Part shown: positions 3,443 to 20,242 of the stretch, in pieces
Layout of the letters: the number at the start of each line of letters is the position of its first letter
How positions within the stretch are numbered: position 1 is the first letter of the stretch
IMG/VR virus record: IMGVR_UViG_3300043803_001148
Location: 1-20,304 of that record
Reading direction: 5' to 3' (one strand)
DNA length: 20,304 nt
Source of the DNA: a virus
Made by a program: the position numbers and the translations under genes
Notes under the pieces: generated by a model
What the model saw: only the letters and a program-made list of their open reading frames with translations
Databases searched by the model: none
Told to the model about the DNA's origin: nothing

Positions 3443-4438
3443 ATGGCAATGACAATCAGTTTCAAAGATGTATATCAGGGAGAGATTTTCCAAAAAACTT
3501 GCTGTATTGATCAGGAAAATGCACTCATGGAACGCATGGCTCAGTACATGCAGCAGCAAGGTTACACTGGACATCACCCTTTGCACAAAATTTGGACACG
3601 CGGGTCGCGCCAGATCATTCAGTGCCTGGTTGACGATTTTTTCACCTGCGGTGACACTAGCCAATCCACTGCTGCATTGTTTGCTGCTGACACCACAGTG
3701 ATCACCGATAACTGGTGCTGGGCCGAGGTTCCCTATGAGATAGTGCGACTGCCCGACAGTTTCTTTGGTACATTTGCCTATGAGCCCAGTATCCGGGACT
3801 GGCAGCCCACCCACAGATTTGGTTTCTGTGTGAATCGCATTGATCCATTGCGTATCCGGTTGCTGTGTGAGATCGCGGACATTGAACGAGATTTGGTAAA
3901 TGTCAATTGCCTGCTGCACGATCACCGCAACGTTGGCCCTGACCAACTGAGAGAAAATTTCCTCAAGTACCGCGAGGAGGTTGATCATGCCCGGTTTGAT
4001 TACTGGGCCAATATCATGCCTGTGCGCAATCATAATCTAACTCTGGAACAGGTGCATGCATCAGTGCAGGTAAACATTGTTGTTGAAACCTATGCTGGAC
4101 CTGACATCGTGGCTTTAAGTGAAAAAACCTGGCGTGCTGTGCAAACACCCGCACCCTGGATGATATATGCTGGACGCGGATCAGTGAAATTTCTTCGTAA
4201 TCTAGGATTTGATGTTCTAGACGATGTAGTGGATCACAGCTATGATCAGGAAACTGATTGGAACGCCAAGATTGCCAAATTTGGTCAATGCGCTCAACGC
4301 ACAGCTCAAAGTGTGATACAAAAATCACGTGTGGAGGCAGCAGCCCAACACAATCAACAACTGCTGGCCACCATGAAACGGCAATGGCCACACGACCTGG
4401 CTCAGTGGTGGCTGCACTATCAAGAGGTCACTGCATAA
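3443..4438 (+). CDS. Glycosyltransferase-like protein (paralogue of 7163-8275)
   Basis: A 331-residue protein without a textbook motif. Its C-terminal part, residues 226-268 (SEKTW, then GRGSVKFLRNLGFDVLDDVVDHSYD), matches a pattern found in GT-B/GT10-like glycosyltransferases and phage relatives: a Ser/Thr-Glu-Lys-Thr donor-site helix, then a Gly turn, then LGF-x(2)-(L/F)DD. The upstream segment RFGFCVNRIDPLRIRLL (residues 125-141) aligns with FNFMINKPRHNREFLL in the gene at 7163, which also shares the C-terminal motif, so the two are paralogues. The region near residues 205-216 (ASVQVNIVVETY) also aligns. There is no signal peptide. The stop overlaps the AsnB start by one base (TAATG), implying coupled synthesis. 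Sugar and acceptor are unknown. Confidence 0.72.
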   Translation: MAMTISFKDVYQGEIFQKTCCIDQENALMERMAQYMQQQGYTGHHPLHKIWTRGSRQIIQCLVDDFFTCGDTSQSTAALFAADTTVITDNWCWAEVPYEIVRLPDSFFGTFAYEPSIRDWQPTHRFGFCVNRIDPLRIRLLCEIADIERDLVNVNCLLHDHRNVGPDQLRENFLKYREEVDHARFDYWANIMPVRNHNLTLEQVHASVQVNIVVETYAGPDIVALSEKTWRAVQTPAPWMIYAGRGSVKFLRNLGFDVLDDVVDHSYDQETDWNAKIAKFGQCAQRTAQSVIQKSRVEAAAQHNQQLLATMKRQWPHDLAQWWLHYQEVTA

Positions 4439-5925
4439 TGTGTGGAATACTGTTGGTCCGTAGCAAACAGCCAATTGCATTGACCAAACATCTTGAGGCA
4501 CTGGAAACCATAAAATCACGCGGTCCTGATTTTTCCAGATATCACTACACTGATCGCACATTCATTGCGCAAACAGTGTTGCACATCACAGGCAGTGACA
4601 GTTTCTATCACACTCATCGTGACGACTTCTTTGCCTTCAACGGCGAAATCTACAACTACCAACAGTTTGGACCTGCTGCTAGTGACATTGATGTGGCATA
4701 CCAGGCTGCTCGCGACGATTTGTATCGCTTTAGAGATTTCACCGGACCCTGGGCCTGGGCGTTGTACAACAGCGGATCATTTACCTATGCTACTGATCCG
4801 CAAGGTGAACGTGTGCTGTATCAGTATCAGGATCAAGATATCTTGATTGTGTCCAGCGAAGTCACTGCAATTCTAGCCTACATACAACCACGTGTTGACT
4901 CGGTGCTCTATGCCAACAAGTGCTGGACTCTGCTGAGTAAAACGCCTTGGCATGGCATTGAGAGAATAACACCAGGCCAACTCTATCGCGACGGTGTGGC
5001 TCAGATCACCATAGATTCTGTGTGGTCCTGGATCAGGCCCAACCACATGACTCCAGCACAAGCACAGGAAGAATTTGATAGCATATGGCGTCAAGTGTGC
5101 CGCGAAATCCAACCCAACTGTGCTGCTTCACTCAGTTACAGTGCCGGGGTTGACAGCACTGTGATTCTAGATGCCATGCCTGATCTTGAACTTGTGGCCA
5201 TCAACATGACAGGCAAGGATCCTGTGGTCACTTGTGCCCGTGAATATCTGTCGTCCAGTCAACTCATCAAGCTGACCATGATTGACATTGGTCCCAAACA
5301 GTGGGCTCAATTGTATCAAGAGCTTGTGTCCAACACACGCATGCCAGCACAGTCATGGAGTTTTGTGGGTAAATGGGCAGTGGCCAAGGCCTGTGGCACT
5401 CGAGTGCTTTTTACCGGACTGGGTGCTGATGAATTGTTTGGTGGCTATGATGTCTATCGTGACCTTGTGTATGACAGTCACGGCAGCCACAGTCCCTACA
5501 GCAGCAACGACCATGACCAATTGTGGTCACAGTGCCTGGACAGCTATCACGGTGACGCCAGGCAGGCCACACTGTTAATGGATTATTGGTATCAGGTCGT
5601 GGGCATGGATGCACCTGGTCAAGATCGCATTGCCGGTGCCTGGGGCATAGAAGTACGCAACCCGTTCATGCACCAACATGTCATGAAGTTTGCACTGAAT
5701 TTGCCTTGGCATCTCAAGGTAGCTGCTGAGTCCAAACCTGTGCTCAAACACCTATGGCGCCGCGGCCGTCCCAACAAAGAAATTTTGCCCAAAATGGGTT
5801 TTGCAGGTCATGCCAATGACAGTGCTGCATGGTTACCGGTTGAAATTCAGTCAACTGGGGATCGCCATCAAGATTGGATTCAAATTGCACAACAGACTTT
5901 TCTCCACTACTGCGAAAAAACTTGA
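4438..5925 (+). CDS. asnB: Glutamine-dependent asparagine synthetase-like amidotransferase
   Basis: A two-domain enzyme that would hydrolyse glutamine and use the ammonia, with ATP, to amidate a carboxylate. The start at 4438 is fixed by MCGI, which makes Cys2 the N-terminal nucleophile; a longer in-frame extension lies inside the previous gene and is rejected. The glutaminase domain shows RGPD (28-31) and FNGEIYNY (67-74). The synthetase domain has the ATP PP-loop SYSAGVDS (233-240) and GLGADELFGGY (327-337). At 495 residues it is slightly shorter than bacterial AsnB (about 550). Its neighbours are a glycosyltransferase-like gene and an oxygenase, which fits relatives such as the O-antigen amidotransferases that make sugar-acid amides. 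Asparagine synthesis remains possible. Confidence 0.9.
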   Translation: MCGILLVRSKQPIALTKHLEALETIKSRGPDFSRYHYTDRTFIAQTVLHITGSDSFYHTHRDDFFAFNGEIYNYQQFGPAASDIDVAYQAARDDLYRFRDFTGPWAWALYNSGSFTYATDPQGERVLYQYQDQDILIVSSEVTAILAYIQPRVDSVLYANKCWTLLSKTPWHGIERITPGQLYRDGVAQITIDSVWSWIRPNHMTPAQAQEEFDSIWRQVCREIQPNCAASLSYSAGVDSTVILDAMPDLELVAINMTGKDPVVTCAREYLSSSQLIKLTMIDIGPKQWAQLYQELVSNTRMPAQSWSFVGKWAVAKACGTRVLFTGLGADELFGGYDVYRDLVYDSHGSHSPYSSNDHDQLWSQCLDSYHGDARQATLLMDYWYQVVGMDAPGQDRIAGAWGIEVRNPFMHQHVMKFALNLPWHLKVAAESKPVLKHLWRRGRPNKEILPKMGFAGHANDSAAWLPVEIQSTGDRHQDWIQIAQQTFLHYCEKT

Positions 5926-6439
5926 TCCCTGGTGTCACTGGATCGTGGATGATTTTCTAACCGCAGACTGTTTGCGCGAACTCAAGTCTGTGCAACACAA
6001 TGTCACGCAAAACATTCCTGGTCGACGTGTTGGCAGCGGTCGCCTGTTTATCAATCACGAACACAGTGATGTGTACCCCAATCTTTATGCGCTTTGGCAA
6101 AGTCTACATCACGGTTTTTATCGACAATACTTCGAACATTTTACCGGACTTGATTACAGTAAATTGTTTCCGCGTGTGGAAGTGGTCAGCGACATTGGAG
6201 AATTTTATCTTGACCCACATCCAGATCAACCCGAAAAACGACTCACTGCGTTGATTTACACTGATCATGAACAACTGTATCCGGGCACAGCATTGTCGGA
6301 TGGATCCCGGGTAGAAAGCAAAGACAATCGTTGTTTCTTTTTTGTACCGGCAGCTGATACCATACACAGCTACCCACGCACCACGTTTGAACAGGTGCGC
6401 AGATGTCTGCAGATCAATTATTGGACCTACAGTCTGTAA
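5885..6439 (+). CDS. 2-oxoglutarate/Fe(II)-dependent oxygenase-like protein
   Basis: The frame encodes a double-stranded beta-helix oxygenase expected to hydroxylate a substrate using 2-oxoglutarate, Fe(II) and O2. Numbering from a TTG at 5885, the WIVDDFL start typical of prolyl-hydroxylase-like proteins is at 19-25. The metal-binding pair HPD has H112 and D114 and is followed by QPEKRLTALIYTD. The distal His is H161 (TIHSYP) and the 2-oxoglutarate-binding Arg is in RRCLQINYW (172-180). The start is uncertain: TTG at 5801 or ATGs at 5810 and 5816 would lie deep in asnB, while 5885 overlaps it by 41 bases. The stop is certain. The 3' end overlaps the convergent gene by 13 bases. Substrate could be a sugar, lipid or protein side chain. 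Confidence 0.82.
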   Translation: MHNRLFSTTAKKLDPWCHWIVDDFLTADCLRELKSVQHNVTQNIPGRRVGSGRLFINHEHSDVYPNLYALWQSLHHGFYRQYFEHFTGLDYSKLFPRVEVVSDIGEFYLDPHPDQPEKRLTALIYTDHEQLYPGTALSDGSRVESKDNRCFFFVPAADTIHSYPRTTFEQVRRCLQINYWTYSL

Positions 6440-7137
6440 CTATCCCAGTCAATGGCAGTACCAAACCAGTCTGTACTGGCTCTGGTATTGGGATTTTGAT
6501 TTAGGTAATTTCTCAACATCATCAATGCTTCGTCGTCGCTGGGTGTGACTGATTGAGTGCGTGAGTTCTGATGTTCGTACCAGTACACACCGTAGGGCGC
6601 AGCACTGTCAGTCATTCTGAACATGAATCTGTCGTTGTCCTGGGCCTGGCACAAACGAGCAAATTGATCAAGCGTGGTCACTGGTTCTAGATCTTGGTAA
6701 AGATGTGCCCTGTCGGACCGAGTACTGATGAATGCTTCAACGTGTGTGATTTCAGGGATGACTTCCAAACACTTTAACCTACTGTCACCAGTGCCTGCTG
6801 AGTAACTGCCATTGCCCTGATCCTGAATCAACCAAGGCTTGATATTACCACGCTGTCGTAAATCTGCCACCCAGATGTTGAACTTGACCATGTTGGTGAA
6901 AGCATATTGATTGCCAGGCAGCACACGGTTGTCTTGATCAAGAGCAGCCACTCCCCAGGCGTCAAGCATGGAATTGAGCCTGTGGCAAAAATCAATCAGT
7001 GTGTACTCTGAGTGTACGGATCGAAAATCAAAACAGGGATTCCAAAACAGGCAATGTGTGCCTGTGTGGTGCATTTCTGCCACAGGATCCTGTGAGCCGG
7101 GCCAGCAAAGTGAAATTAGAGGATTGTTCCAGTACAT
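6427..7137 (-). CDS. Protein of unknown function, 236 aa, in a lone minus-strand gene
   Basis: Not recognised. The single leftward gene inside an otherwise rightward island. It encodes a soluble protein rich in Trp, Asp and Asn. Landmarks are FWNPCFDFRS (about 31-40), LIDFCHRLNSMLDAWG (about 47-62), a mixed beta region around VKFNIWVADLRQ (about 84-95), and a C-terminal helical MMLRNYLNQNPNT before WFGTAIDWDSY. No signal peptide or metal motif. The ATG at 7137 has no ribosome binding site and a predicted leader of only about a dozen bases, starting from a TATAAATA box that overlaps the divergent gene's ATG. The 3' end overlaps the oxygenase gene by 13 bases. Confidence 0.7.
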   Translation of the reverse strand: MYWNNPLISLCWPGSQDPVAEMHHTGTHCLFWNPCFDFRSVHSEYTLIDFCHRLNSMLDAWGVAALDQDNRVLPGNQYAFTNMVKFNIWVADLRQRGNIKPWLIQDQGNGSYSAGTGDSRLKCLEVIPEITHVEAFISTRSDRAHLYQDLEPVTTLDQFARLCQAQDNDRFMFRMTDSAAPYGVYWYEHQNSRTQSVTPSDDEALMMLRNYLNQNPNTRASTDWFGTAIDWDSYRL

Positions 7138-7142
7138 AAATA
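7135..7142 (+). promoter_or_regulatory. Late-type promoter box CATAAATA (rightward)
   Basis: On the plus strand CATAAATA differs from the T4 late consensus TATAAATA at one base and lies 20 bases ahead of the ATG at 7163. It overlaps the start codon of the divergent gene at 7137. Confidence 0.5.
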
Positions 7143-7155
7143 ACGGCGTATAAAA

Positions 7156-7163
7156 TATTTATA
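7156..7163 (-). promoter_or_regulatory. Late-type promoter box TATAAATA (leftward, exact T4 consensus)
   Basis: On the minus strand the octamer is identical to the T4 late consensus and lies 18 bases ahead of the ATG at 7137. Its first base is the first base of the divergent gene's ATG at 7163. Confidence 0.6.
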
Positions 7164-8275
7164 TGATAGAAATTTTTGGACCTACATATCGCTACGGCGG
7201 CGAAATACTGACCAAACCCGAGATCATCTATGTGAGCGATCATCACTATGATGAGGAACAACAGTGCTTTCATGTCAAGACTCTGCTGGAAAACAGCGCC
7301 TGTGATCCTCGTGAGCACTTGGTGGTGTTTGACCATATGAATCACGAAGACGAACTCAGTGCCTACAATACTTTGTATTTGCCAATCTTGTTGTCAGCTG
7401 AAAGCAAAGAATTTGCCTCGGCCAACATAGTGCCAGACTGGAGCAATAAAACTTTCAACTTCAATTTCATGATCAACAAACCCAGACACAATCGAGAGTT
7501 CTTGTTGCTGTTGATCAAACATTTCAAACTGGAGAATTATTGTTACACTCTGTGCTGGCAAGACATACAAATCAGTCGTGACACCATGGCTCGTCGAACC
7601 AGCAACGCAGAGTACAAAAAAATCATCCTGGAGACCGAAGTTGACATCCCAGGACACTATCTCAGTGTTGGCACAGAACGTCTCCTGGGACGCGGATTGC
7701 AGTATGGGTCAGTGAAAAATTTTGAAAACTATGTCAACCTGCTGAAACAAAACATTTTTGAACCCAGCTGTGTAAGCCTAATCACCGAACCCAGTTTCTA
7801 TGAGCGCGAGACATTGAAAACTGAAAAAACCATCATGTCCATGTACGGTGGCACTTTGCCAATTTGGGTAGGTGGTTGGCGCATTCCGCAATCGCTGCGC
7901 GATCTTGGCTTTGATGTGTTTGATGATATCATAGACCACAGCTACGAAAGCATGAGTGATCCCTATGATCGTGCCTACTATGCTGTGCAAAAAAATCTAG
8001 ATCTTTTGCGAGATTTTACAGCAGCCAAAGATTTCATTGAACGCAATCATGATAGATTTCAACACAACATTAGATTGATTGAGCAAAATGTATTTTTGAA
8101 CAACATGGTCAACAAGATCAAACAATACAGTGAACGTGAACAACGGTATCTTTTGATGATTGCCGAGGGATTTAGATTTAGATGTCTAGCTGACTATCAA
8201 CTACTGGGAGAGCTGATTGGTGACAAAAGCAAACACAATCACGATCCTGACGAAACAAGGCAACGTTGGGGTTAG
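7163..8275 (+). CDS. Glycosyltransferase-like protein (paralogue of 3443-4438)
   Basis: A 370-residue protein whose residues 219-261 (KTEKTI, GGTLPIWVGG, LRDLGFDVFDDIIDHSY) reproduce the C-terminal motif of the gene at 3443, with FNFMINKPRHNREFLLLL (99-116) as the second shared block. The Thr-Glu-Lys-Thr helix followed by PIWVGG resembles the donor-binding region of GT-B/GT10-like enzymes, where (S/T)EK and a downstream P-(I/V)-x-x-G occur. This supports sugar transfer, but no donor can be named. The first 95 residues look like an unrelated Rossmann-like N-terminal half. There is no ribosome binding site; the leader from the box at 7135-7142 would be about 14 bases. Its stop overlaps the stop of the convergent gene at 8272. 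Confidence 0.75.
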   Translation: MIEIFGPTYRYGGEILTKPEIIYVSDHHYDEEQQCFHVKTLLENSACDPREHLVVFDHMNHEDELSAYNTLYLPILLSAESKEFASANIVPDWSNKTFNFNFMINKPRHNREFLLLLIKHFKLENYCYTLCWQDIQISRDTMARRTSNAEYKKIILETEVDIPGHYLSVGTERLLGRGLQYGSVKNFENYVNLLKQNIFEPSCVSLITEPSFYERETLKTEKTIMSMYGGTLPIWVGGWRIPQSLRDLGFDVFDDIIDHSYESMSDPYDRAYYAVQKNLDLLRDFTAAKDFIERNHDRFQHNIRLIEQNVFLNNMVNKIKQYSEREQRYLLMIAEGFRFRCLADYQLLGELIGDKSKHNHDPDETRQRWG

Positions 8276-9955: not shown

Positions 9956-10949
9956 CAAGAACTCCTTGGTATGTTTCATTCAGCCAGCGTCCAACTGAAT
10001 CGGCTGCTTCGCTGAGTTTGACAAGATCGTACTTGCCACAGAATTTTAAAAAGTGTGCGCCTACCTGGCCCACATCTCTATGACTGACTTGCGCCCGGAT
10101 GGCCTGATCCACTGCGGCCTTGATAGTGTCTGGCTGTGCTGTTAGATCAATCAAGGTGCGATTGCGTTCGTAATCATCCAGCACACGGTGTTCTTTGCCT
10201 TCATGATCAGTCCAACGTTGAAGCATGAGATTGTTCCAGGCATAACCGCGTTTGATTCGGTCCTCATAGGCTTCTTGAAGCCCTACTTTGTTTTTTGTGC
10301 CCTTGGTTCTCACGCCAGGAAACGCTGAGAACACATTGTCGCTGCTGTCGCCGCGCATGCATTTCTCAAACAACAACCAGACTGGATCAGGTATGGCCTT
10401 GGCTGTTTTTGTTTTCTTGTCAATCACAGCATTGCCCTTGGCATCAAACACACCCTCCAGCGTGATTAGTTCGTCAGTGATACCGTTGTATTGATTGACG
10501 TTTTCAGCCAGTAGTTGCACAAAGTCTGTGTCGCTGCTGACAATGGTGTGATGATCGCCAGGATGCAGTGCGATCCAGCGAGCAATGATGTCATCGGCTT
10601 CGGCTGTTTCGTGTCGTATCACGCTGCAATTGGTGCGGGTGGCAAGATACTGACACAGTTCGTCATAGGTTTGCCAAAACAGTTGATCTTCTTCGGCTTC
10701 GGCTTCGGTCATGGCAGCTCGAGCCACGGCACGATTTTTCTTGTAGGGCTCGTAAAAGTCCTTTCGCCAGCTACGTCCTTCCAACGCAAACACCACGTGG
10801 TCAGCGTTGAACTTGCGTACCACTTTGTTTGCAGCCATCAAGGTCACATGCAAGGCAAAACCCAGTCGGGTCCAAGTATCACTGGCTCGATGTGCGCTGT
10901 GTCTAGCACGAAAGAACATGTTGGCAGTGTCAATCAAGAGATATCGCAT
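9930..10949 (-). CDS. rnh: RNase H / 5'-3' exonuclease, T4 Rnh type
   Basis: A FEN-family 5'-3' nuclease that in T4 removes RNA primers from lagging-strand fragments at the replication fork. The 339-residue protein has the metal-binding acidic residues in their expected order: LLIDTANM with D7, EGRSWRKDFYEPYKKNR (57-73) for the helical arch, EADD (117-120), SSDTDF (138-143) and GDSSDN (200-205), followed by the helix-hairpin-helix-like PGVRTKGTKN. T4 RNase H is about 305 residues, so length fits. The ATG lies 20 bases inside the end of the upstream SGNH-like gene. This is the clearest T4-like marker in the window and the reason the genome is placed there. Confidence 0.93.
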   Translation of the reverse strand: MRYLLIDTANMFFRARHSAHRASDTWTRLGFALHVTLMAANKVVRKFNADHVVFALEGRSWRKDFYEPYKKNRAVARAAMTEAEAEEDQLFWQTYDELCQYLATRTNCSVIRHETAEADDIIARWIALHPGDHHTIVSSDTDFVQLLAENVNQYNGITDELITLEGVFDAKGNAVIDKKTKTAKAIPDPVWLLFEKCMRGDSSDNVFSAFPGVRTKGTKNKVGLQEAYEDRIKRGYAWNNLMLQRWTDHEGKEHRVLDDYERNRTLIDLTAQPDTIKAAVDQAIRAQVSHRDVGQVGAHFLKFCGKYDLVKLSEAADSVGRWLNETYQGVLDDSCQTHS

Positions 10950-11664
10950 GGTGTCCCAGAATGTTGTGAGTGTCTAGGTATTGTAGCACATATTGAGCCC
11001 AAAAGCAATGAGCAGCGGCACCAAAATGGTAGGTGTGAGGATTAGCAAATTCATAACCATTTTCACGAAGAATGGCCGCATAACTGTGTTGAATACTATA
11101 GGGTTCAATAAAGTTCACACCCCAATCGTGTTGTTCATCCAAACTGAGTTCGCTAAAGGTACTCTGTCCGTTGAAAAACACATGGCGTACGCCCAAACTC
11201 ACTAGGTCTTGATGCAGTGCCCAGATTTTTTCATGAGCTTGGCGTGTCTTGGTATACCAATCTACTGAAGCCACAAACTCGCGATAGCGATTTTGCAATT
11301 CAGGGGGTACTGAATCTATGCCACTGGCATTGACCTGATACCAGATGCCCTCGTGTAACCACTCCTCACGCTCCCATGTAGTCCACTGTATGATCACAAC
11401 AGTGTCTGCCAAATCATGACTGTGGTCAGCCATCCACTGTCGTGTGGTTCTCAAAATGCGATCGTTGCTGGCTGCACTTTCTGCGTCACAGATCAGTTCA
11501 GTCTTGAGCTGTTGAGACACGTGTGTCGCCCAACTGTGTTTGAAGTTTTCAGGATGTGGTCTACGACCAAGATGCTGATAATCGCCGTCATCTTCGGCGA
11601 ATGCATGTGGCAGCACTGCTTCAGCGGCAGCAGTATGGCTACATCCATTGATGTAAAGTTTCAT
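10930..11664 (-). CDS. SGNH-like hydrolase or acyltransferase, 244 aa
   Basis: The N-terminal KLYINGCSHTAAAEAV places the block I pattern G-(C/D)-S-(H/F)-(T/S) at residues 7-11, where Ser would be the nucleophile. A strand such as TVVIIQWTTWEREEW (about 88-102) is like the region carrying the block III Asn, although here it lacks a clear GxND. The C-terminal NPHTYHFGAAAHCFWA resembles the D-x-x-H block V but with Asp not obvious, so the catalytic triad may be incomplete. Proteins of this kind are common in phage glycan clusters and may add or remove acyl groups. The start overlaps the cytidylyltransferase stop (ATGA). A similar but not identical protein is encoded at 13820. Confidence 0.72.
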   Translation of the reverse strand: MKLYINGCSHTAAAEAVLPHAFAEDDGDYQHLGRRPHPENFKHSWATHVSQQLKTELICDAESAASNDRILRTTRQWMADHSHDLADTVVIIQWTTWEREEWLHEGIWYQVNASGIDSVPPELQNRYREFVASVDWYTKTRQAHEKIWALHQDLVSLGVRHVFFNGQSTFSELSLDEQHDWGVNFIEPYSIQHSYAAILRENGYEFANPHTYHFGAAAHCFWAQYVLQYLDTHNILGHHAISLD

Positions 11665-12771: not shown

Positions 12772-12978
12772 TCAGTCAAGTCTGCCCCACTTGATTTTCA
12801 ACCACACACGTTCGTGAACGTAATAGTCAATGCTGAGAAGAACATGCAGAGCTGTGGCAAAGCCTGTGGCACTGCCTAGATTGCCAGTGAACAGATAAGT
12901 CCAAAATATAGTAAACAACCAGGCTGTCAATCTGTAGGTCAACATCCGTGTCAGCGTTCTTGCACGAGTTTCGGTCAT
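12772..12978 (-). CDS. DUF2061 small membrane protein, 68 aa
   Basis: A membrane protein of the DUF2061 family, 68 residues. MTETRARTLTRMLTYRLTAWLFTIFWTYLFTG contains a first hydrophobic helix (about 16-31), and GSATGFATALHVLLSIDYYVHERVWLKIKWG carries a second and ends in the family's hallmark YYxHERxW. Function of the family is unknown; it probably sits in the inner membrane. The ATG at 12978 overlaps the QueE stop as ATGA, which decides the start over an upstream GTG. Confidence 0.88.
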   Translation of the reverse strand: MTETRARTLTRMLTYRLTAWLFTIFWTYLFTGNLGSATGFATALHVLLSIDYYVHERVWLKIKWGRLD

Positions 12979-13820
12979 CGACCCCACCCATTTCCCCAGA
13001 GATCCACATGCAATCTGGGACTATACCAATAACCACGTTTCAACGCTTCATTGGCCACATTGAATCTATTGCTGTCGTACACTGACACTGTACCGCCCAC
13101 GGGCATCACAAACACTGGACCTGCAAATTCACGTGAACGATATTCGGCCACAGCACGATCTACTTCGTCAAAGTCTTCCGGCTTGTCAACCACAAACTTG
13201 AGATAGGTCACGCCATGATTCTCGTATTCAAACACTGTGTCTGGACGTATGGCATCCTCCCACTTCTCGCCACTCACACTCAGCTTGGGACTCACACTGA
13301 ATGTGATCTCGCCATGCCAGTCATAAATGTATTTCCTAAACTCTGGTGTAAGGTCTTGTGTGCCATTGGTTTCAAAAGTCACATGCCTTAGACCACGCTC
13401 GTGTAGATAGCTCAAGAGTTCCGGATAGGCACGTTGCCATCCCAGCAAGGGTTCTCCGCCTGTGATAACCAAATGCACTGGCATCTGATTGGGCTGTAGC
13501 CATGTGTTGTTGGGCAACAGTTGTTCCATGGCATTAGACAGTTCTTCCACTGTGTAGCTGCGACTGAGATGTCGAAAGGCAGGATGCCAGGATGCATAAC
13601 TGTCGCAACCAGTAGACACCAGCGGCAGTTCTTCAAACGTCCGATACAGTTCTACTTGTTTGGCAACATCATCGGCCTCAACACTGCGTTCTCCAGGAGC
13701 GCAACCAAAACCACTGCAGGTAAAGTTGCAACCAAACGTGCGCAGAAATATGCTGGGAACTCCAACATATCGTCCTTCGCCCTGAGCGCTGTAAAATATT
13801 TCACTGACTTTGATTTTCAT
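12975..13820 (-). CDS. queE: 7-carboxy-7-deazaguanine synthase, radical SAM (QueE)
   Basis: Radical SAM enzyme that converts 6-carboxytetrahydropterin to 7-carboxy-7-deazaguanine, third step from GTP towards preQ0 and queuosine. The N-terminus IFYSAQGEG, then VPSIFLRTFGC, is diagnostic, and GGEPLLGW (121-128) and TFETNGTQ follow. At 281 residues it is longer than most cellular QueE (about 210-220). Cluster cysteines C31 and C35 are in CNFTC. The third is probably C72 in CDSYASW, matching the CDSAFTW-like segment of cellular enzymes, so a roughly 36-residue insertion separates C35 and C72; C40 lies inside it. The start overlaps the upstream SGNH stop (TAATG). FolE and QueD are farther up the same strand. 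Confidence 0.93.
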   Translation of the reverse strand: MKIKVSEIFYSAQGEGRYVGVPSIFLRTFGCNFTCSGFGCAPGERSVEADDVAKQVELYRTFEELPLVSTGCDSYASWHPAFRHLSRSYTVEELSNAMEQLLPNNTWLQPNQMPVHLVITGGEPLLGWQRAYPELLSYLHERGLRHVTFETNGTQDLTPEFRKYIYDWHGEITFSVSPKLSVSGEKWEDAIRPDTVFEYENHGVTYLKFVVDKPEDFDEVDRAVAEYRSREFAGPVFVMPVGGTVSVYDSNRFNVANEALKRGYWYSPRLHVDLWGNGWGR

Positions 13821-14566
13821 TAATGACCTCTAAATCTATTCACTGCGCTTGAACCGTTTAGACCTGATTCAAACACTATGGGATTGTTTGCTATTTTATT
13901 ACGCACATCTTGATCTGTCACCCAACCTGGCAATACTGCATCAAGATAACGCAGATGTTCCTGTGTGGTGGGGTGATAGTCAACTCTATCCACACTGTGG
14001 CGCAGTCTTAGATGCTGATCTTTATTCCAGTAATTTTCTCCCAAGACTTCTATATAACTTGTGCCAAGACTTTGAATTACATCTTGATACAGTTCAAGCA
14101 TTTTGGGATTGTCAATACGGTCTTGATTCATGTCGCTCACACGGTCTATAGGAACCATGCACAAAAACTTCCAAGTCACGCCAGGACGATCAAGCAACAT
14201 GTCTCTCACTGCCTTGATTGAGTTCAAGTCTCTCAACAAGAAGCCATGCTCGCACACTCCGCTGTCAATGAACTCCTTGGTGTAAATTTTGTCAGCCCAG
14301 GCCACATTGCCCAGTGTCAACCAGCCTCGACCTTGCACATATCGGTCTTCGCGCATGACATCGGTCCAACACACTATCACAGTGTCGCCAGCACCAAAGC
14401 CGTGCCGCTGATCAGCTTCCATGAAGGACTGAAATATGAACTGATTGCCAGCACCGGCCTGTCCCCAGTTTTCAAATTCACTGTACTGATGCGACAAGAT
14501 AGTGGCCCAGGTCCAATACTTGTAGTTGGTAAAACTACAGCCAAATGTGAAAAGCCTATTTGCCAT
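13820..14566 (-). CDS. SGNH-like hydrolase or acyltransferase, 248 aa
   Basis: Starts MANRLFTFGCSFTNYKYWTWATIL. The FGCSFT block (8-13) supplies a block I Ser, and the C-terminal RVDYHPTTQEHLRYLDAVLP supplies an Asp-x-His-like pair with the usual following helix (His, Leu, Tyr-Leu), so the SGNH fold is more convincing than for the gene at 10930. The strand DTVIVCWTDVMRED may correspond to block III. The probable role is adding or removing acyl groups on a glycan, which fits the dehydratase and epimerase genes just upstream, but no substrate is implied. ATG 14566 is chosen over a TTG at 14599 that would add a non-matching N-terminus. It overlaps the gmd stop by 11 bases and the queE ATG by one. 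Confidence 0.78.
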   Translation of the reverse strand: MANRLFTFGCSFTNYKYWTWATILSHQYSEFENWGQAGAGNQFIFQSFMEADQRHGFGAGDTVIVCWTDVMREDRYVQGRGWLTLGNVAWADKIYTKEFIDSGVCEHGFLLRDLNSIKAVRDMLLDRPGVTWKFLCMVPIDRVSDMNQDRIDNPKMLELYQDVIQSLGTSYIEVLGENYWNKDQHLRLRHSVDRVDYHPTTQEHLRYLDAVLPGWVTDQDVRNKIANNPIVFESGLNGSSAVNRFRGH

Positions 14567-15533
14567 GTGTGGAGTTGTACACTGCGATCCAGTGATCAAT
14601 CATTTCATCCATGAGCTGTTCAAATGTGTAGCTTGGCTTCCAACCCAGTTCAGTTGTGATCTTGGTGTTGTCACCGCGGAGATAAGGAAGCTCTTCTGGC
14701 CTCAGATATTTGGGATTCTGCACCACGTGATCTTGATAATTCAATTCCAGCTTCTTGAACACGTAGTCGCACATGTCACGCACAGATCGTGTGACACCAG
14801 TGGCCACCACATAGTCGTTGGGTTTATCTTGCTGCAGAATCAAGTGCATGGCTCTCACATAATCATAACTGTGTCCCCAGTCACGATAGCTGTCCATGTT
14901 GCCAAGTTCCAGTTTGGTAGCCAGTCCCAGTTTGATTTCCACGGCACCTTTCACAACTTTGTTTGTGACAAAGTTTGATCCACGGCGTGGACTTTCATGA
15001 TTGAACAGAATGCCGTTGCTGGCATGCAGTCGATAGGCATTGCGATAGTGATGCACAATGTTATAGGCAAACACCTTGCTGCAACCATAAGGACTCACAG
15101 GATGCATGGGAGTTGTTTCACGCTGATATCCATCACTATCAACCGAACTACCAAACATTTCACTAGAGCTGGCTTGATAGAATTTGGCATGGGGTACAAC
15201 GTTTTTGTAGGCTTCAAGAATATTGACCACACCCAAGGCATTGGTCTGTACCGTGAACTGCGGAATGTCGCTGGAGATACGCACATGACTCTGTGCTGCT
15301 AGATTGTAGATTTCGTCAGGCTGATAGATACGCAAAGCACGTTCCAGGCTGCTTTGATCTGTGAGATCACCATACTCAACTTCTATAGGTAGATCGGCAA
15401 TGCGATTCTTTTGGTGTTCTACTGTGCTGTTTCGGCGAATGATGCCTGTGACTCTGTAGCCCTGTTCTACCAGGTGCTCGGCAAGATAGCTGCCGTCTTG
15501 TCCGGCAATGCCGGTAATGAATGCTGTTTTCAT
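14556..15533 (-). CDS. gmd: GDP-mannose 4,6-dehydratase
   Basis: Extended short-chain dehydrogenase that converts GDP-D-mannose to GDP-4-keto-6-deoxymannose, precursor of GDP-fucose, rhamnose and perosamine. ITGIAGQDGSYLAEHL (6-21) is the NADP-binding loop characteristic of Gmd. The catalytic Ser-Glu occurs in SSSEMFG and the Tyr-Lys pair in YGCSK (149-153). NHESPRRG (178-185) is a Gmd family marker, as is the C-terminal YLRPEELPYLRGD. The 325 residues are slightly short for the family (about 345-370). It has its own strong sigma70 promoter at 15557-15585 and an AAGGA ribosome binding site. No Fcl or perosamine synthase is in the window; the next sugar step is unknown. Confidence 0.95.
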   Translation of the reverse strand: MKTAFITGIAGQDGSYLAEHLVEQGYRVTGIIRRNSTVEHQKNRIADLPIEVEYGDLTDQSSLERALRIYQPDEIYNLAAQSHVRISSDIPQFTVQTNALGVVNILEAYKNVVPHAKFYQASSSEMFGSSVDSDGYQRETTPMHPVSPYGCSKVFAYNIVHHYRNAYRLHASNGILFNHESPRRGSNFVTNKVVKGAVEIKLGLATKLELGNMDSYRDWGHSYDYVRAMHLILQQDKPNDYVVATGVTRSVRDMCDYVFKKLELNYQDHVVQNPKYLRPEELPYLRGDNTKITTELGWKPSYTFEQLMDEMIDHWIAVYNSTHGK

Positions 15534-15556
15534 GAATGTCCTTGAGTGTTGATTGT

Positions 15557-15585
15557 ATTATATAGATGCTATTGCGATTTGTCAA
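15557..15585 (-). promoter_or_regulatory. Perfect sigma70 promoter before gmd
   Basis: On the minus strand TTGACA (15580-15585) and TATAAT (15557-15562) are separated by exactly 17 bases, twelve of twelve matching the bacterial consensus. The -35 box lies within the last codons of the epimerase gene and the start site would be near 15550, about 16 bases ahead of the gmd ATG. Confidence 0.85.
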
Positions 15586-16447
15586 AATATTTTGCAACCA
15601 CTCGTCCAATTCCTTCTTCAAGACTCACAGTGGGATGAAAATTGAACAAGTGTTGGGCCAATGACACATCGCCCTGTCGGTGTTTGGCTACCCCACCGGT
15701 GATTTCTTGCAGCTCAAGATCACTGCCAAGAGTGCGCAGAATGGTCTGGGCTACTTCACGTATGGTATAGGATTGACCCCCGCCAATATTGATGGTTTGG
15801 TTGCAGCAATCATCGCTTTGTACTATGTCAATGGTGGCTTGCACAGCATCATCTATATAGAGATAGGTTCTGGTGCTGTCACCGGTCATGAGCGTGGTGT
15901 CTTGCTTCTCAACCACGCGAGCAATAAAATCAGGAATGAATTGATTGCGCTGACCGGGTCCATAGATGTTGTGATACCTAACCACAGTAAAGTCAGTGCC
16001 GGTTTGATGATGCATGGCCTGTATCTGTAGTTCATTGGTCAACTTGCTGCCACCGTAACAGCTACGAGGATCTTGTGGATTGTCTATACACAGCGGAACT
16101 GATTCCGGTGTGGGCATGGGCACTGAGAAATAGTCACGACTGCCAGCATAGACTTCGCTGGTACTGGCCAGCACGAATCTCTTTACATTGCCTTGATAGC
16201 GTTCAATCAGATATTGAGTTGACAAAATGTTTGTGGTCAGTACATCAAATGGTCGTGTGGCAAATGCCTGCGGTTGATTGACAGCAGCAAAATGCATGAC
16301 AACATCAACTGCGGGCAAAAACTGAACCTGCTGACGTTGCGTCAAATCAACGCCGTCTGGGCGTACCACTTCATGCCCTTGCTGTTCAAGCCTGTGAGCC
16401 ACGTGACTGCCGATGAAACCACGATGACCTGTGACTAGAATTTTCAT
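15569..16447 (-). CDS. NAD-dependent epimerase/dehydratase (sugar nucleotide)
   Basis: Extended short-chain dehydrogenase, 292 residues, acting on an NDP-sugar. The NAD-binding GHRGFIG (7-13), MHFAAVNQ, ASTSEVY (94-100) with a catalytic Ser/Thr, YGGSK (131-135) with the catalytic Tyr and Lys, and RYHNIYGPGQ are in standard order; RTYLYIDDAV and NIGGGQSYT complete the fold. It resembles UDP-glucose 4-epimerase and dTDP-glucose 4,6-dehydratase-like enzymes, but specificity cannot be read. A role after or beside Gmd is suggested by adjacency, although gmd has its own promoter. The ATG overlaps the cupin stop. Confidence 0.9.
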   Translation of the reverse strand: MKILVTGHRGFIGSHVAHRLEQQGHEVVRPDGVDLTQRQQVQFLPAVDVVMHFAAVNQPQAFATRPFDVLTTNILSTQYLIERYQGNVKRFVLASTSEVYAGSRDYFSVPMPTPESVPLCIDNPQDPRSCYGGSKLTNELQIQAMHHQTGTDFTVVRYHNIYGPGQRNQFIPDFIARVVEKQDTTLMTGDSTRTYLYIDDAVQATIDIVQSDDCCNQTINIGGGQSYTIREVAQTILRTLGSDLELQEITGGVAKHRQGDVSLAQHLFNFHPTVSLEEGIGRVVAKYFDKSQ

Positions 16448-16842
16448 ATGGGTTCGCTGTCCATTTCACGACCAAGATAAGGTCCGTTTTTGATTTCATA
16501 TATCACAGCAGATTCCAAGACCTCAAACCCGTGAGCACCGCGATACAGTATCATGCAGTCACCACCGCCCAGCATTATTGTGTCGCAATGCGAACCATCA
16601 ATGTCATAAAGCTCGGCGCGAATCACACCACGCATGACCACCCATGCTTCTTGTGTACCAACAGTGTTGCGCGGTGTTGCTAGATGTCTGTGCGGTCTAA
16701 GCTGACGTCCTGGTGCTAGCGGTATTGCTGCGGCCTGTAGAATTTCATCTGTGCCAGCAGCATCGGTGCGAACATCAACGTCTGAGTTCATGACCGTGGC
16801 CAACAACAGCGTGGGGTCAACCCGGCTGTGATACTTTTTCAC
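16444..16842 (-). CDS. Cupin-fold protein, WbuC-like
   Basis: A small beta-barrel protein with metal-ligand candidates H51 and H53 in LRPHRHLA, E65 in TQEAW and H104 in RGAHG, the usual two cupin motifs. The body GVIRAELYDIDG, LGGGDCMILYRG and the ending YEIKNGPYLGREMD resembles cupins of O-antigen clusters (WbuC-type), whose activity is not settled. The start is ambiguous. GTG at 16842 gives MKKYHSRVDPTLLLATVMN, which looks like a conserved N-terminus. ATG at 16791 would cut 17 residues off a probably helical start, and an upstream ATG at 16890 lies inside the glycosyltransferase gene. Coupled to the epimerase. A carbohydrate ketoisomerase or binding role is inference. Confidence 0.8.
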   Translation of the reverse strand: MKKYHSRVDPTLLLATVMNSDVDVRTDAAGTDEILQAAAIPLAPGRQLRPHRHLATPRNTVGTQEAWVVMRGVIRAELYDIDGSHCDTIMLGGGDCMILYRGAHGFEVLESAVIYEIKNGPYLGREMDSEPI

Positions 16843-17704
16843 GGGATTTGTTCTCGTACTCGTAACTGAGCTCGCCCTTGGCAGGATCAATCTTCATTTT
16901 GTACTGCACCATCTGCCCATTGACATCGTTGACTTTGAGTTTGGCCCAGGGATCTTGTTCACCAGACTTCACACGAGTCCACCAATCAATGTCCATGCCG
17001 ATCTCTACCATGTGTCGCGACAGCCGTTCACACTCGTTGAGTCTTTTTTGAGTCCAACTGATATGGTGAAAGTCATTGGGATCATGTGGCTTGCCTTCCA
17101 GAGCAATTCTACCTTTGAAGGTGCTGTCTTTGTTGTTGCCAGTAAGATCATGTCGATCATGATTGACAGTGACATCAATTCTTTCCCAGATGTCTAACAT
17201 ATATGCACATTGACTCAACCATGCGTCAATCATTTGATGTGGACTGAGATGACCCAGCAGTTCCATCCACACAGCAGGTACAATAGGGAAAATGCTGTAG
17301 GGATGGTCGTTATGGGTGTGTACTGCCAACAATTTGAACTCGCCAGTGCGCTGGGCAATTACATCGTCCCAGTTTTGAGTTTCCATCACAGCATCATCAT
17401 TGAAAAACATGTACCAGTCAGCATCGGCTCGCTGGGCCAGTTCATTACCGTAACGATTGATATTCACATAGCCCATGGGTGCAAACTGCACAGCTCGATA
17501 GTGAACACCGCGTTGATCAAGCTTGGTCTTGAGGCTGTTGCGGAAATGATCCAGGCCCACTGTATCATCACGATCAAACCCCAGCATGAACTGCACCTGA
17601 TCCAAATTGGAACAGTTGTCAATCAGGCTGAATATGCTGCGATCCAAGAGGTCAGTTCGGCCACGAGTGGGCAGCAAGATTGCTATTTTGTATTGCTTAG
17701 TCAT
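16817..17704 (-). CDS. Family-2-like glycosyltransferase (GT-A fold)
   Basis: A GT-A glycosyltransferase of 295 residues that would move a sugar from a nucleotide donor to an acceptor. ILLPTRGRTDLLDRSIFSL is the N-terminal nucleotide-binding strand and helix. GFDRDD (42-47) and the DXD-like FFNDDAVM (100-107) come at the usual spacing, and NINRYGNELA precedes the latter. The C-terminal third (HDPNDFHHISWTQKRLNECE onward) is charged and not diagnostic; there is no membrane helix. The ATG overlaps the MazG-like stop by eight bases. It is one of three glycosyltransferase-like proteins, and unlike the pair at 3443 and 7163 it has a classical GT2 start. Confidence 0.88.
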   Translation of the reverse strand: MTKQYKIAILLPTRGRTDLLDRSIFSLIDNCSNLDQVQFMLGFDRDDTVGLDHFRNSLKTKLDQRGVHYRAVQFAPMGYVNINRYGNELAQRADADWYMFFNDDAVMETQNWDDVIAQRTGEFKLLAVHTHNDHPYSIFPIVPAVWMELLGHLSPHQMIDAWLSQCAYMLDIWERIDVTVNHDRHDLTGNNKDSTFKGRIALEGKPHDPNDFHHISWTQKRLNECERLSRHMVEIGMDIDWWTRVKSGEQDPWAKLKVNDVNGQMVQYKMKIDPAKGELSYEYENKSREKVSQPG

Positions 17705-17993
17705 CTATAGAATCCCTGTGTGTTGAAAAAATGTTTGACCATTGTTGTAGCTTTTGACGTTTGAGTTTCTTGGCTGTGTCTAGTGCATCTGGATCAACTA
17801 TGCCTTGATCTATCAATATATCAATCATGGCCATTACGTCACCAATTTCACGTTCCAACATTGTGCGATGTGGAATGCCGCGACTGTAATGTATAGAGTT
17901 CAAACCAAATCTGCGACACTTGCTGACTTCAACAATGACCTCGGCACATTCTTCTTGCAATATATCCAATGCTTCTTGAACTTGTGTGTTCAT
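17697..17993 (-). CDS. MazG-like nucleotide pyrophosphohydrolase, 98 aa
   Basis: A second, smaller all-alpha NTP pyrophosphatase. LQEECAEVIVEVSKCRRFG contains the EECAE metal motif (14-18), and EREIGDVMAMIDIL carries the second motif with E49 and D52. ATG 17993 overlaps the QueD stop as ATGA, which decides the start over one at 18014, so the two are made together. Family members cleave (d)NTPs or ppGpp-like compounds; cyanophage MazG has been studied as a nucleotide-pool enzyme, but which substrate this one uses is unknown. The coupling to QueD could mean a role in pterin or deazaguanine nucleotide handling. Confidence 0.88.
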   Translation of the reverse strand: MNTQVQEALDILQEECAEVIVEVSKCRRFGLNSIHYSRGIPHRTMLEREIGDVMAMIDILIDQGIVDPDALDTAKKLKRQKLQQWSNIFSTHRDSIDD

Positions 17994-18493
17994 GCAAATA
18001 GATCCTCGTTCCACTCTCTATGTCCTTCTCTAAAAGCCATGTTGGCTTGTGTTTCTCGTACTTCTACTCTGTAGCACCACAGACGTTCAGCCTCACCTGG
18101 CCCCCACATCTCAGGAATGTAAACACCGTTCACATACTTGTACAACATGTCAGCAAGCCCTTCACACCCCAGTCGTGGCAGAACAACGATCTTGGCCATG
18201 TTTCGTTCTTTCAACAATTGGAATGTCTCCATTTCGGGATCATCTTGTGCCACAATCAAGGTATGATCAAACTGATCCTCTAACACTGATTTCAGTTCTT
18301 TGAGACCACCATAATCTGCCGCCCAGTTACGTACATCCAAATCGTCTGTGCCAAAATAAAACTTCATGCTAAAACTATAGCCGTGAATTAGATTGCAATG
18401 ACTATCAGCACGCCATTGACGATACGCACATGGAAATGCATCGTGATATTCTTTTGTACTTGTGTATTTGTAAACTCTTGTTGCTAAAGACAT
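17990..18493 (-). CDS. queD: QueD-like 6-carboxytetrahydropterin synthase
   Basis: Member of the 6-pyruvoyltetrahydropterin synthase fold, the second enzyme from GTP to 7-deazaguanines. Residues FPCAYRQW (20-27), SHCNLIHGYS (31-40), FDHTLI (75-80) and EVRET near 145-149 align with the E. coli enzyme. Catalytic Cys33 and the Asp76-His77 pair are present. Of the three zinc-binding histidines of cellular QueD, only the first of HGH (H37) is obvious: the others are Tyr24 and Tyr39. At 167 residues it is longer than cellular QueD (about 120) owing to an insert around 85-110. The start is supported by TAGGAG. From memory, phage relatives share the CAYRQW-like and HGY motifs. Confidence 0.88.
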   Translation of the reverse strand: MSLATRVYKYTSTKEYHDAFPCAYRQWRADSHCNLIHGYSFSMKFYFGTDDLDVRNWAADYGGLKELKSVLEDQFDHTLIVAQDDPEMETFQLLKERNMAKIVVLPRLGCEGLADMLYKYVNGVYIPEMWGPGEAERLWCYRVEVRETQANMAFREGHREWNEDLFA

Positions 18494-19492: not shown

Positions 19493-20242
19493 TTATCTAG
19501 GCGCAAACTCCTGTTGTAGCTTGATATTGTCCATGAACTCTTTCTTGACACTGGCATCAGTACTGAACACACCTTTTAACACAGTGGTCTGTGTCAATGA
19601 ACTGTGTGCCATGATACCGCGATTCTCGCAGCAGCCATGTGTGGCCTGAATATACACACCAACATCGTGACTGTCAGTGGCACGAATTATTTCTCGGGCA
19701 ATGTCATTACACAGTTCTTCTTGTAACGTACCTCTCCGCGCACACCATTGTGCGATTCGTGTGTATTTGGACAGACCGATAAGTTTATTGGCCGCAATGA
19801 TACCGATATAGGCGACACCATTAACAGGCTGATGATGATGACTACACATGCTACGAAGCTCGCTGCGTACAACAAGCATACCTTCATATCTTTCTTGCGA
19901 GTGGTTGGGAAAAGCAGTTGCATCAGGTCTTGATTCATATCTACCTGCCATTATCTCATTGAAATACATCTTGGCCAGCCTACGAGCTGTGCCTGCACTG
20001 TTGGGATCTGTTTCACGATCAATCAACAACCTATCCAGTACCAATTCAAAAGCTTCTGTTGCCTCATTGATTAGATGTTCTTTGTCTGTTTCGTGCAAGT
20101 AGTCACTGATGTTGTCACCTGCCCAAAAACGTTTGTTGTCGCGTTGCATTCTGGCACGGATCGCGTCGGCCAAATATGTTTTCTTTGGTGCTGAAGTACC
20201 AGTGTCATCGTCGTTGCTCTGGTACATTTTTTCGTAAACCAT
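19493..20242 (-). CDS. folE: GTP cyclohydrolase I (FolE)
   Basis: First enzyme from GTP to 7,8-dihydroneopterin triphosphate, feeding QueD. The 249-residue protein has SMCSHHHQPVNG with zinc ligands C133 and H136, IGLSKYTRIAQWCARR, the QEEL segment (usually QERL), and HGCCENRG with the third ligand near C204. The first 40 residues are an extra N-terminal tail beyond the usual core (E. coli about 222). Unlike typical bacterial FolE, the loop NHSQERYEGMLVVRSELRS before the zinc motif is not tightly conserved but fits the fold. The ATG at 20242 follows AGGAG. A CTAAATA box is 38 bases upstream. Given QueD and QueE in the same run, it probably serves deazaguanine rather than folate synthesis. Confidence 0.93.
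   Translation of the reverse strand: MVYEKMYQSNDDDTGTSAPKKTYLADAIRARMQRDNKRFWAGDNISDYLHETDKEHLINEATEAFELVLDRLLIDRETDPNSAGTARRLAKMYFNEIMAGRYESRPDATAFPNHSQERYEGMLVVRSELRSMCSHHHQPVNGVAYIGIIAANKLIGLSKYTRIAQWCARRGTLQEELCNDIAREIIRATDSHDVGVYIQATHGCCENRGIMAHSSLTQTTVLKGVFSTDASVKKEFMDNIKLQQEFAPR

Follow-up and report, generated by a model that had tools for sequence, protein, structure and literature searches.

A conserved jumbo-phage gene module centred on a divergent AsnB-like amidotransferase and a predicted ParB-fold partner

The window analysed here is a 20.3-kb stretch of virus DNA (record IMGVR_UViG_3300043803_001148, positions 1 to 20,304) in which the majority of genes lie on the minus strand. 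Between positions 3443 and 8275 it carries a block of five genes, P1 to P5, which is a real conserved module and not a chance co-location, and which belongs to T4-like jumbo phages. This biosynthetic module has no close match in INPHARED (50,697 annotated phage records), and it is centred on a divergent AsnB-like amidotransferase, P2, tied to P4, a protein predicted to have the ParB fold. We propose tentatively, with confidence a little short of even, that the module amidates the carboxylate of a sugar, probably a uronic sugar, and then transfers this sugar to an acceptor. The evidence comes from sequence and model analysis of contig fragments from one broad phage lineage.

The five-gene module and its conservation

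The features of the module are as follows.

3443..4438, plus strand: P1, GT-B-like glycosyltransferase (GT), 331 amino acids (aa)
4438..5925, plus strand: P2, AsnB-like amidotransferase, 495 aa, with an N-terminal-nucleophile (Ntn) glutaminase domain and a PP-loop synthetase domain
5885..6439, plus strand: P3, putative 2-oxoglutarate (2OG)/Fe(II) oxygenase, about 184 aa, an optional member
6427..7137, minus strand: P4, predicted ParB/sulfiredoxin-fold protein, 236 aa, convergent with the AsnB and oxygenase genes and the constant partner of AsnB
7135..7163, no strand assigned: divergent P4/P5 start region with T4-late-promoter-like elements
7163..8275, plus strand: P5, second GT-like protein, 370 aa, with a C-terminal EK-type donor segment common to P1

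A sequence-only reading of this DNA had placed four plus-strand genes here, starting at 3443, 4438, 5885 and 7163. All four reading frames are present, the oxygenase start being ambiguous between TTG 5885 and TTG 5801 and its end lying at 6439. The proposed coupling of the first three genes is borne out by an overlap of the P1 stop and P2 start (TAATG) and by an overlap of at least 41 bp between P2 and P3. P3 and P4 meet tail to tail with an overlap of 13 bp, a gap of 25 bp separates the head-to-head genes P4 and P5, and P5 shares 4 bp with the next convergent gene. The four-gene island of that reading is a true conserved module, although its fifth member, P4, had been neither counted nor identified, and the module can do without the oxygenase.

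A scan of IMG/VR with P2 yielded 23 loci, all with the order P1+ P2+ P3+ P4- P5+ within the reach of their contigs. Searching more widely with alignments of P4 and P2 returned 82 P4 relatives and 377 AsnB relatives, of which 80 each were kept. For neighbourhood counts, identical AsnB sequences were collapsed and at least 4.5 kb downstream was required, leaving 60 distinct viral loci. A convergent P4 adjoins AsnB in every one of the 60, and among the 40 loci that are also complete upstream P1 is present in all, P5 in 37 and P3 in 14. This search of other phages, which had been suggested with the sequence-only reading, found the genes kept together, not scattered, in the first-scan loci and in the larger set alike. 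The orders P1-P2-(P3)-P4-P5, P1-P2-P4, P2-P4-P1-P5 and P2-P4-P5-P1 all occur. Between the two main layouts the conserved flanking genes run in opposite directions relative to AsnB, and the AsnB/P4 pair has therefore survived rearrangement. Between the window and locus L020, the ratio of nonsynonymous to synonymous substitution rates (dN/dS) is 0.08-0.12 for P1, P2, P3 and P5; for P4 the dS is saturated and the dN is 0.24. Genes for the T4-type major capsid protein were found in 4 of 15 relative records; among these are two of the three near-complete genomes of 328-349 kb.

In the gap between P4 and P5, the element TATAAATA occurs at 7163-7156 on the minus strand, its sole exact copy in the window (0.18 expected), and CATAAATA lies on the opposite strand at 7135-7142 (+). 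Upstream of P4 in the relatives, TAAGTA is found in 45 of 60 cases versus 3.5 in shuffled sequences, and TTTACTAAGTA in 25 of 60 versus none; a TTTACTAAGTA or TAAATA element is kept at this position. Late expression of the module from these elements would fit the pattern.

Several relatives carry additional genes beside the module. One subclade has a further P1-like GT of 410 aa (L016 8451-9683; L019 14001-15233, minus strand; L077 7438-8673, plus strand). In L136 (10001-13634) AsnB is followed by a radical S-adenosylmethionine (SAM)/SPASM protein, an oxygenase and a 285-aa protein without known family, and the locus ends before any P4. The near-complete genome G003 has, directly upstream of AsnB, three tandem oxygenase-like genes of about 185 aa and a serine hydroxymethyltransferase gene (70092-71738 and 68758-69897, minus strand); the oxygenase-like calls are a motif reading by eye, and a homologue from L150 gave no Pfam match. 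Carboxylate transporter subunits, TctA-like and TRAP-DctP-like by eye, lie near the module in L150 (3426-4835) and L137 (14182-15171).

Predicted properties of the proteins

The AsnB-like identity of P2 is solid, with Pfam matches to Asn_synthase (9e-19) and GATase_7 (1e-7). P2 nevertheless falls under the curated cut-off of every equivalog, scoring 124.6 bits against TIGR01536 (asn_synth_AEB, cut-off 267.1) and 43.7 bits against the uronamide-type TIGR03108 (cut-off 816.9), and it gives weak NCBIfam matches to lasso and macrolactam cyclases. The nearest bacterial relatives of the viral AsnB proteins are only 20-27% identical, and none of P1, P3, P4 or P5 was found in 80 bacterial AsnB neighbourhoods. 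In a quick tree with 76 bacterial sequences and E. coli AsnB, the viral proteins form a single clade (Shimodaira-Hasegawa-like approximate likelihood ratio test, 100); S-SCSM2R sits on a long branch and its placement is unsure.

The viral proteins have two domains, as do E. coli AsnB (asparagine synthetase B, 1ct9) and human ASNS, and in all 50 viral sequences compared Cys1, Arg30, Asn74, Gly75, Glu76, Asp98, the SxGxDS PP-loop, Asp351, Glu352, Asp384 and Lys449 (E. coli numbering) are retained. In contrast, Glu348 of the aspartate site is present in none of the 50 (L 15, V 11, I 11, Q 7, A 5, C 1), and neither is Arg49, which contacts glutamine (PMC11296641) and is replaced by Val in 49 sequences and Ile in one, whereas 73 of the 76 bacterial sequences have Arg. 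All known asparagine synthetases conserve the human equivalent of Glu348, Glu-364, whose replacement (E364A/Q) abolishes activity (PMC6748925). The replacement of both residues makes it unlikely that P2 supplies asparagine. Position 348 is also variable in a diverse sample of bacterial AsnB-like sequences (E 23, D 25, Q 16, L 7); its substitution accordingly speaks against asparagine synthesis without naming the substrate. The doubt about asparagine supply already voiced in the sequence-only reading is thereby strengthened, the viral proteins standing in a clade of their own and not among true asparagine synthetases. P2 offers a clean test of a non-asparagine AsnB whose glutamine site has changed.

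P4 is shown by profiles and by its GxxR motif to belong, at the level of prediction, to the ParB/sulfiredoxin (ParB-CTPase) fold. A ParB_N match was obtained for 22 of 48 P4 relatives at E-values up to 0.1 (best 1.7e-5), but not for the P4 of the window on its own; a deep P4 profile matched Noc at E 0.012, and the GxxR P motif (Box II) is present in all 48. The structural side of this check was less informative, since the AlphaFold2 (AF2) model of P4 is poor (mean predicted local distance difference test score, pLDDT, 64.5), too weak to carry the assignment alone, and its matches to Noc, KorB, PadC, sulfiredoxin and SerK are weak. GxxR has been defined as the P motif of the ParB-CTPase fold in a 2025 survey, which also reports NTP (nucleoside triphosphate) binding by phage members (PMC12704722). 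P4 resembles the orphan members of that survey, and Noc, SerK and sulfiredoxin (Srx), in its ParB_N domain and P motif, but its partners differ, and the module offers a function-bearing context for an orphan of this fold. Neither a helix-turn-helix nor a partner ParA was recognised for P4, in the course of an analysis that included no search aimed at either. The window also encodes a diverged full-length paralogue of P4 (1225-1875, minus strand) with a GDTR motif and without a Pfam match, which is present in the close relatives L003 and L020.

P1 appears to be a GT-B-type glycosyltransferase. Its AF2 model (pLDDT 85.8) best matched T4 beta-glucosyltransferase in a Foldseek search of the PDB (1bgt/1c3j, E 1.2e-3, probability 0.99, template modelling (TM) score about 0.37), with further matches to FUT13 and EXT1/2. 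The structural check proposed for the GT-like proteins hence supports a resemblance of P1 to GT-B enzymes, but with modest significance. No match to P1 was found in Pfam, PHROG or NCBIfam, and its profile found nothing in bacterial and archaeal genomes. The two GT-like genes had been called paralogous; this holds for the C-terminal 70 or so residues (hhalign probability 97%; BLASTP 22 aa), while the remainder of the proteins is not shared. The EKT segment of P5 gave a weak match to the GT10 fucosyltransferase 9s6a (E 0.18). T4 beta-glucosyltransferase and GT10/exostosin-type GT-B enzymes are, by these modest matches, the nearest to P1 in its modelled fold and to P5 in its EK-type C-terminal segment, but show no match to P1 at the sequence level.

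The Fe(II) oxygenase identity given to P3 is right by motif: H112-x-D114, H161 and R172, the metal triad and the 2OG-binding Arg, are invariant in 10 relatives, with an E-value of 0.077 for Pfam 2OG-FeII_Oxy_3 and a weak match to the hydroxylase 9blq in the PDB (E 0.004). Hydroxylation as a constant part of the system, however, has to be given up, since P3 is missing from most relatives, including the 328-kb near-complete genome G003.

In tblastn searches of INPHARED, P1, P3, P4 and P5 found nothing, and P2 found two distant records at 22% identity (distant AsnB homologues overall, 22-26%). The enzyme classes are all known, whereas their combination and the AsnB/ParB-fold pairing appear to be new; a phage module of AsnB, ParB-fold and GT proteins is not named in the literature searched.

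Proposed chemistry and competing explanations

In the scheme that we tentatively favour, the PP-loop domain of P2 would activate a carboxylate as acyl-AMP, the substrate most likely being a uronic acid, either as such or as its nucleotide sugar, and the N-terminal glutaminase domain would supply ammonia to form the amide, by chemistry established for the family. P1 and P5, as putative GT-B glycosyltransferases, may then transfer the amidated sugar to an acceptor, which could be a virion protein, a glycan, a lipid or DNA. P4, as a predicted NTP-binding protein, could act with P2 either as a kinase-like activator or as a nucleotide-dependent adaptor, and P3, where encoded, may hydroxylate the product. 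Of the activities originally suggested, sugar transfer and amidation still give the best reading.

Nucleotide-sugar dehydrogenases make uronates, and a member of the UDP-glucose/GDP-mannose dehydrogenase family is encoded by all three near-complete relatives; in 5 of 19 compared loci (L128, L131, L137, L147 and L154) it lies within 10 kb of AsnB. The AsnB homologues WbpS, WbqG and PGN_1234 (TIGR03108), whose genes adjoin glycosyltransferase genes as in the module, convert uronic acids to uronamides (PMC7468200). With this precedent and the uronate-making dehydrogenases of the relatives, the product that has most in its favour is an amidated sugar. Should the amide chemistry prove right, it would widen known phage glycan or nucleic-acid modification.

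Several points weigh against this scheme. The substrate, product and acceptor are inferred, as is the fold of P5, the GT-B fold having been modelled for P1 only and matched there at fold level, with a TM score of about 0.37 and no E-value below 0.001. P2 is far below the TIGR03108 cut-off, and the Wbp pathway was not recognised here. The loss of Arg49 puts free glutamine as the ammonia donor in doubt. In the near-complete genomes a long distance separates the sugar dehydrogenase from AsnB (about 120 kb in G001). The window's GDP-mannose dehydratase was rejected as a source of the donor because its gene is not kept together with the module in relatives. Finally, all relatives belong to a single broad phage lineage, and the conservation of the neighbourhood is therefore not fully independent evidence.

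A bolder version, which we consider unlikely, is that P2 and P4 together make up a new amidation machine of two proteins, acting on a phage-made carboxylate (a uronate or 7-carboxy-7-deazaguanine, CDG), its ammonia donor altered through the loss of Arg49, and feeding two GT-B enzymes that modify phage DNA or the virion. Were it true, this would be hypermodification chemistry so far undescribed.

The main mechanistic rival is amidation by P2 of CDG, the product of QueE. P2 would here replace QueC in converting CDG to the amide, a step of the known deazaguanine pathway (PMC6884629), and P3 and the GTs would decorate a base that enters phage nucleic acid. The window encodes QueE (12975-13820), QueD (17990-18493) and FolE (19493-20242), all on the minus strand; the three also lie close to the module in near-complete relatives. 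Five large relatives lack QueC, so CDG, a carboxylic acid, could be the substrate of P2. To judge from these genes, the pathway FolE-QueD-QueE seems to end at CDG or to rely on host enzymes. The best fold match of P1 is, moreover, a DNA glucosyltransferase. Achromobacter phage Motura (L262 5395-11164) has an AsnB-like gene within its que cluster, between queC and a transglycosylase gene, whose product is possibly an amidotransferase of the 7-deazaguanine DNA pathway. However, Motura also encodes a QueC, and the AsnB of this phage differs in kind, keeping Arg49 and Glu348 and lying closer to bacterial AsnB. The tRNA-guanine transglycosylase (TGT)/DpdA family was found neither in 15 records (PF01702) nor in near-complete relatives with Motura or E. 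coli TGT probes, although divergent DpdA subfamilies may escape detection (PMC6884629), and no DpdA2 was recognised in Vibrio phage ValKK3 that could serve as a probe. DpdA-type DNA modification was rejected for the records searched. The thymidylate-synthase family, which would hold the dCMP-hydroxymethylase of T4-type base glucosylation, is absent from seven large records, and T4-type DNA glucosylation is disfavoured; QueE is also present in many phages of other lineages. On balance, we regard the deazaguanine route as rather improbable, if the strongest of the rivals.

Next in rank, and also improbable, is a peptide or natural-product-like pathway in which an AsnB-type cyclase or amide ligase works with the oxygenase, in the style of lasso peptides or of carbapenem and clavulanate. 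Beta-lactam pathways are built round an AsnB-like enzyme and a 2OG oxygenase, and the cyclase matches of P2 and the radical SAM/SPASM enzyme adjoining AsnB in the L136 variant point the same way. Beta-lactam synthetases have lost the glutaminase Cys, whereas the viral proteins keep this glutamine-hydrolysis residue in 50 of 50. The oxygenase is optional while the GT-like genes are near-constant, and a precursor peptide was not recognised, though no search was aimed at one.

That the genes are unrelated and stand together only through close kinship of the phages is already disfavoured and scarcely probable. Core flanking genes are indeed common to all loci whose contigs extend far enough, but the P2-P4 linkage persists down to 46% AsnB identity, with the module inverted and the GT genes reshuffled relative to the flanks. 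Asparagine supply during infection by an auxiliary metabolic gene with unrelated neighbours is the least probable of all: asparagine synthetases are the closest named families, and P2 retains both the nucleophile of the glutaminase and the PP-loop motifs, but the residue, clade and cut-off evidence given above and the invariant P4 and nearly invariant GT linkage argue against it.

Other genes in the surroundings

The nucleotide-sugar genes of the window, which count in favour of the sugar scheme, include a GDP-mannose dehydratase, an epimerase and a cytidylyltransferase. A cluster at 14556-17704 on the minus strand comprises the GDP-mannose 4,6-dehydratase, epimerase, a cupin-like protein and a 295-aa GT-like protein, the last being conserved in jumbo relatives. 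In G001 (L258 9986-13700) the sugar dehydrogenase gene lies beside genes for an Asp/Arg-hydroxylase-like protein and a 305-aa protein that is amidinotransferase-like by eye. The same neighbours occur in L259 and L260, making three jumbo phages, with a UvdE-like protein nearby.

Two SGNH-hydrolase-like proteins, recognised by eye, are encoded on the minus strand of the window at 10930-11664 and 13820-14599. The first matches DUF6071, and its family is conserved near the module and sometimes duplicated. Genes for tRNA-Arg(tct) and tRNA-Met(cat) are located at 1130-1204 and 1891-1967, both on the minus strand.

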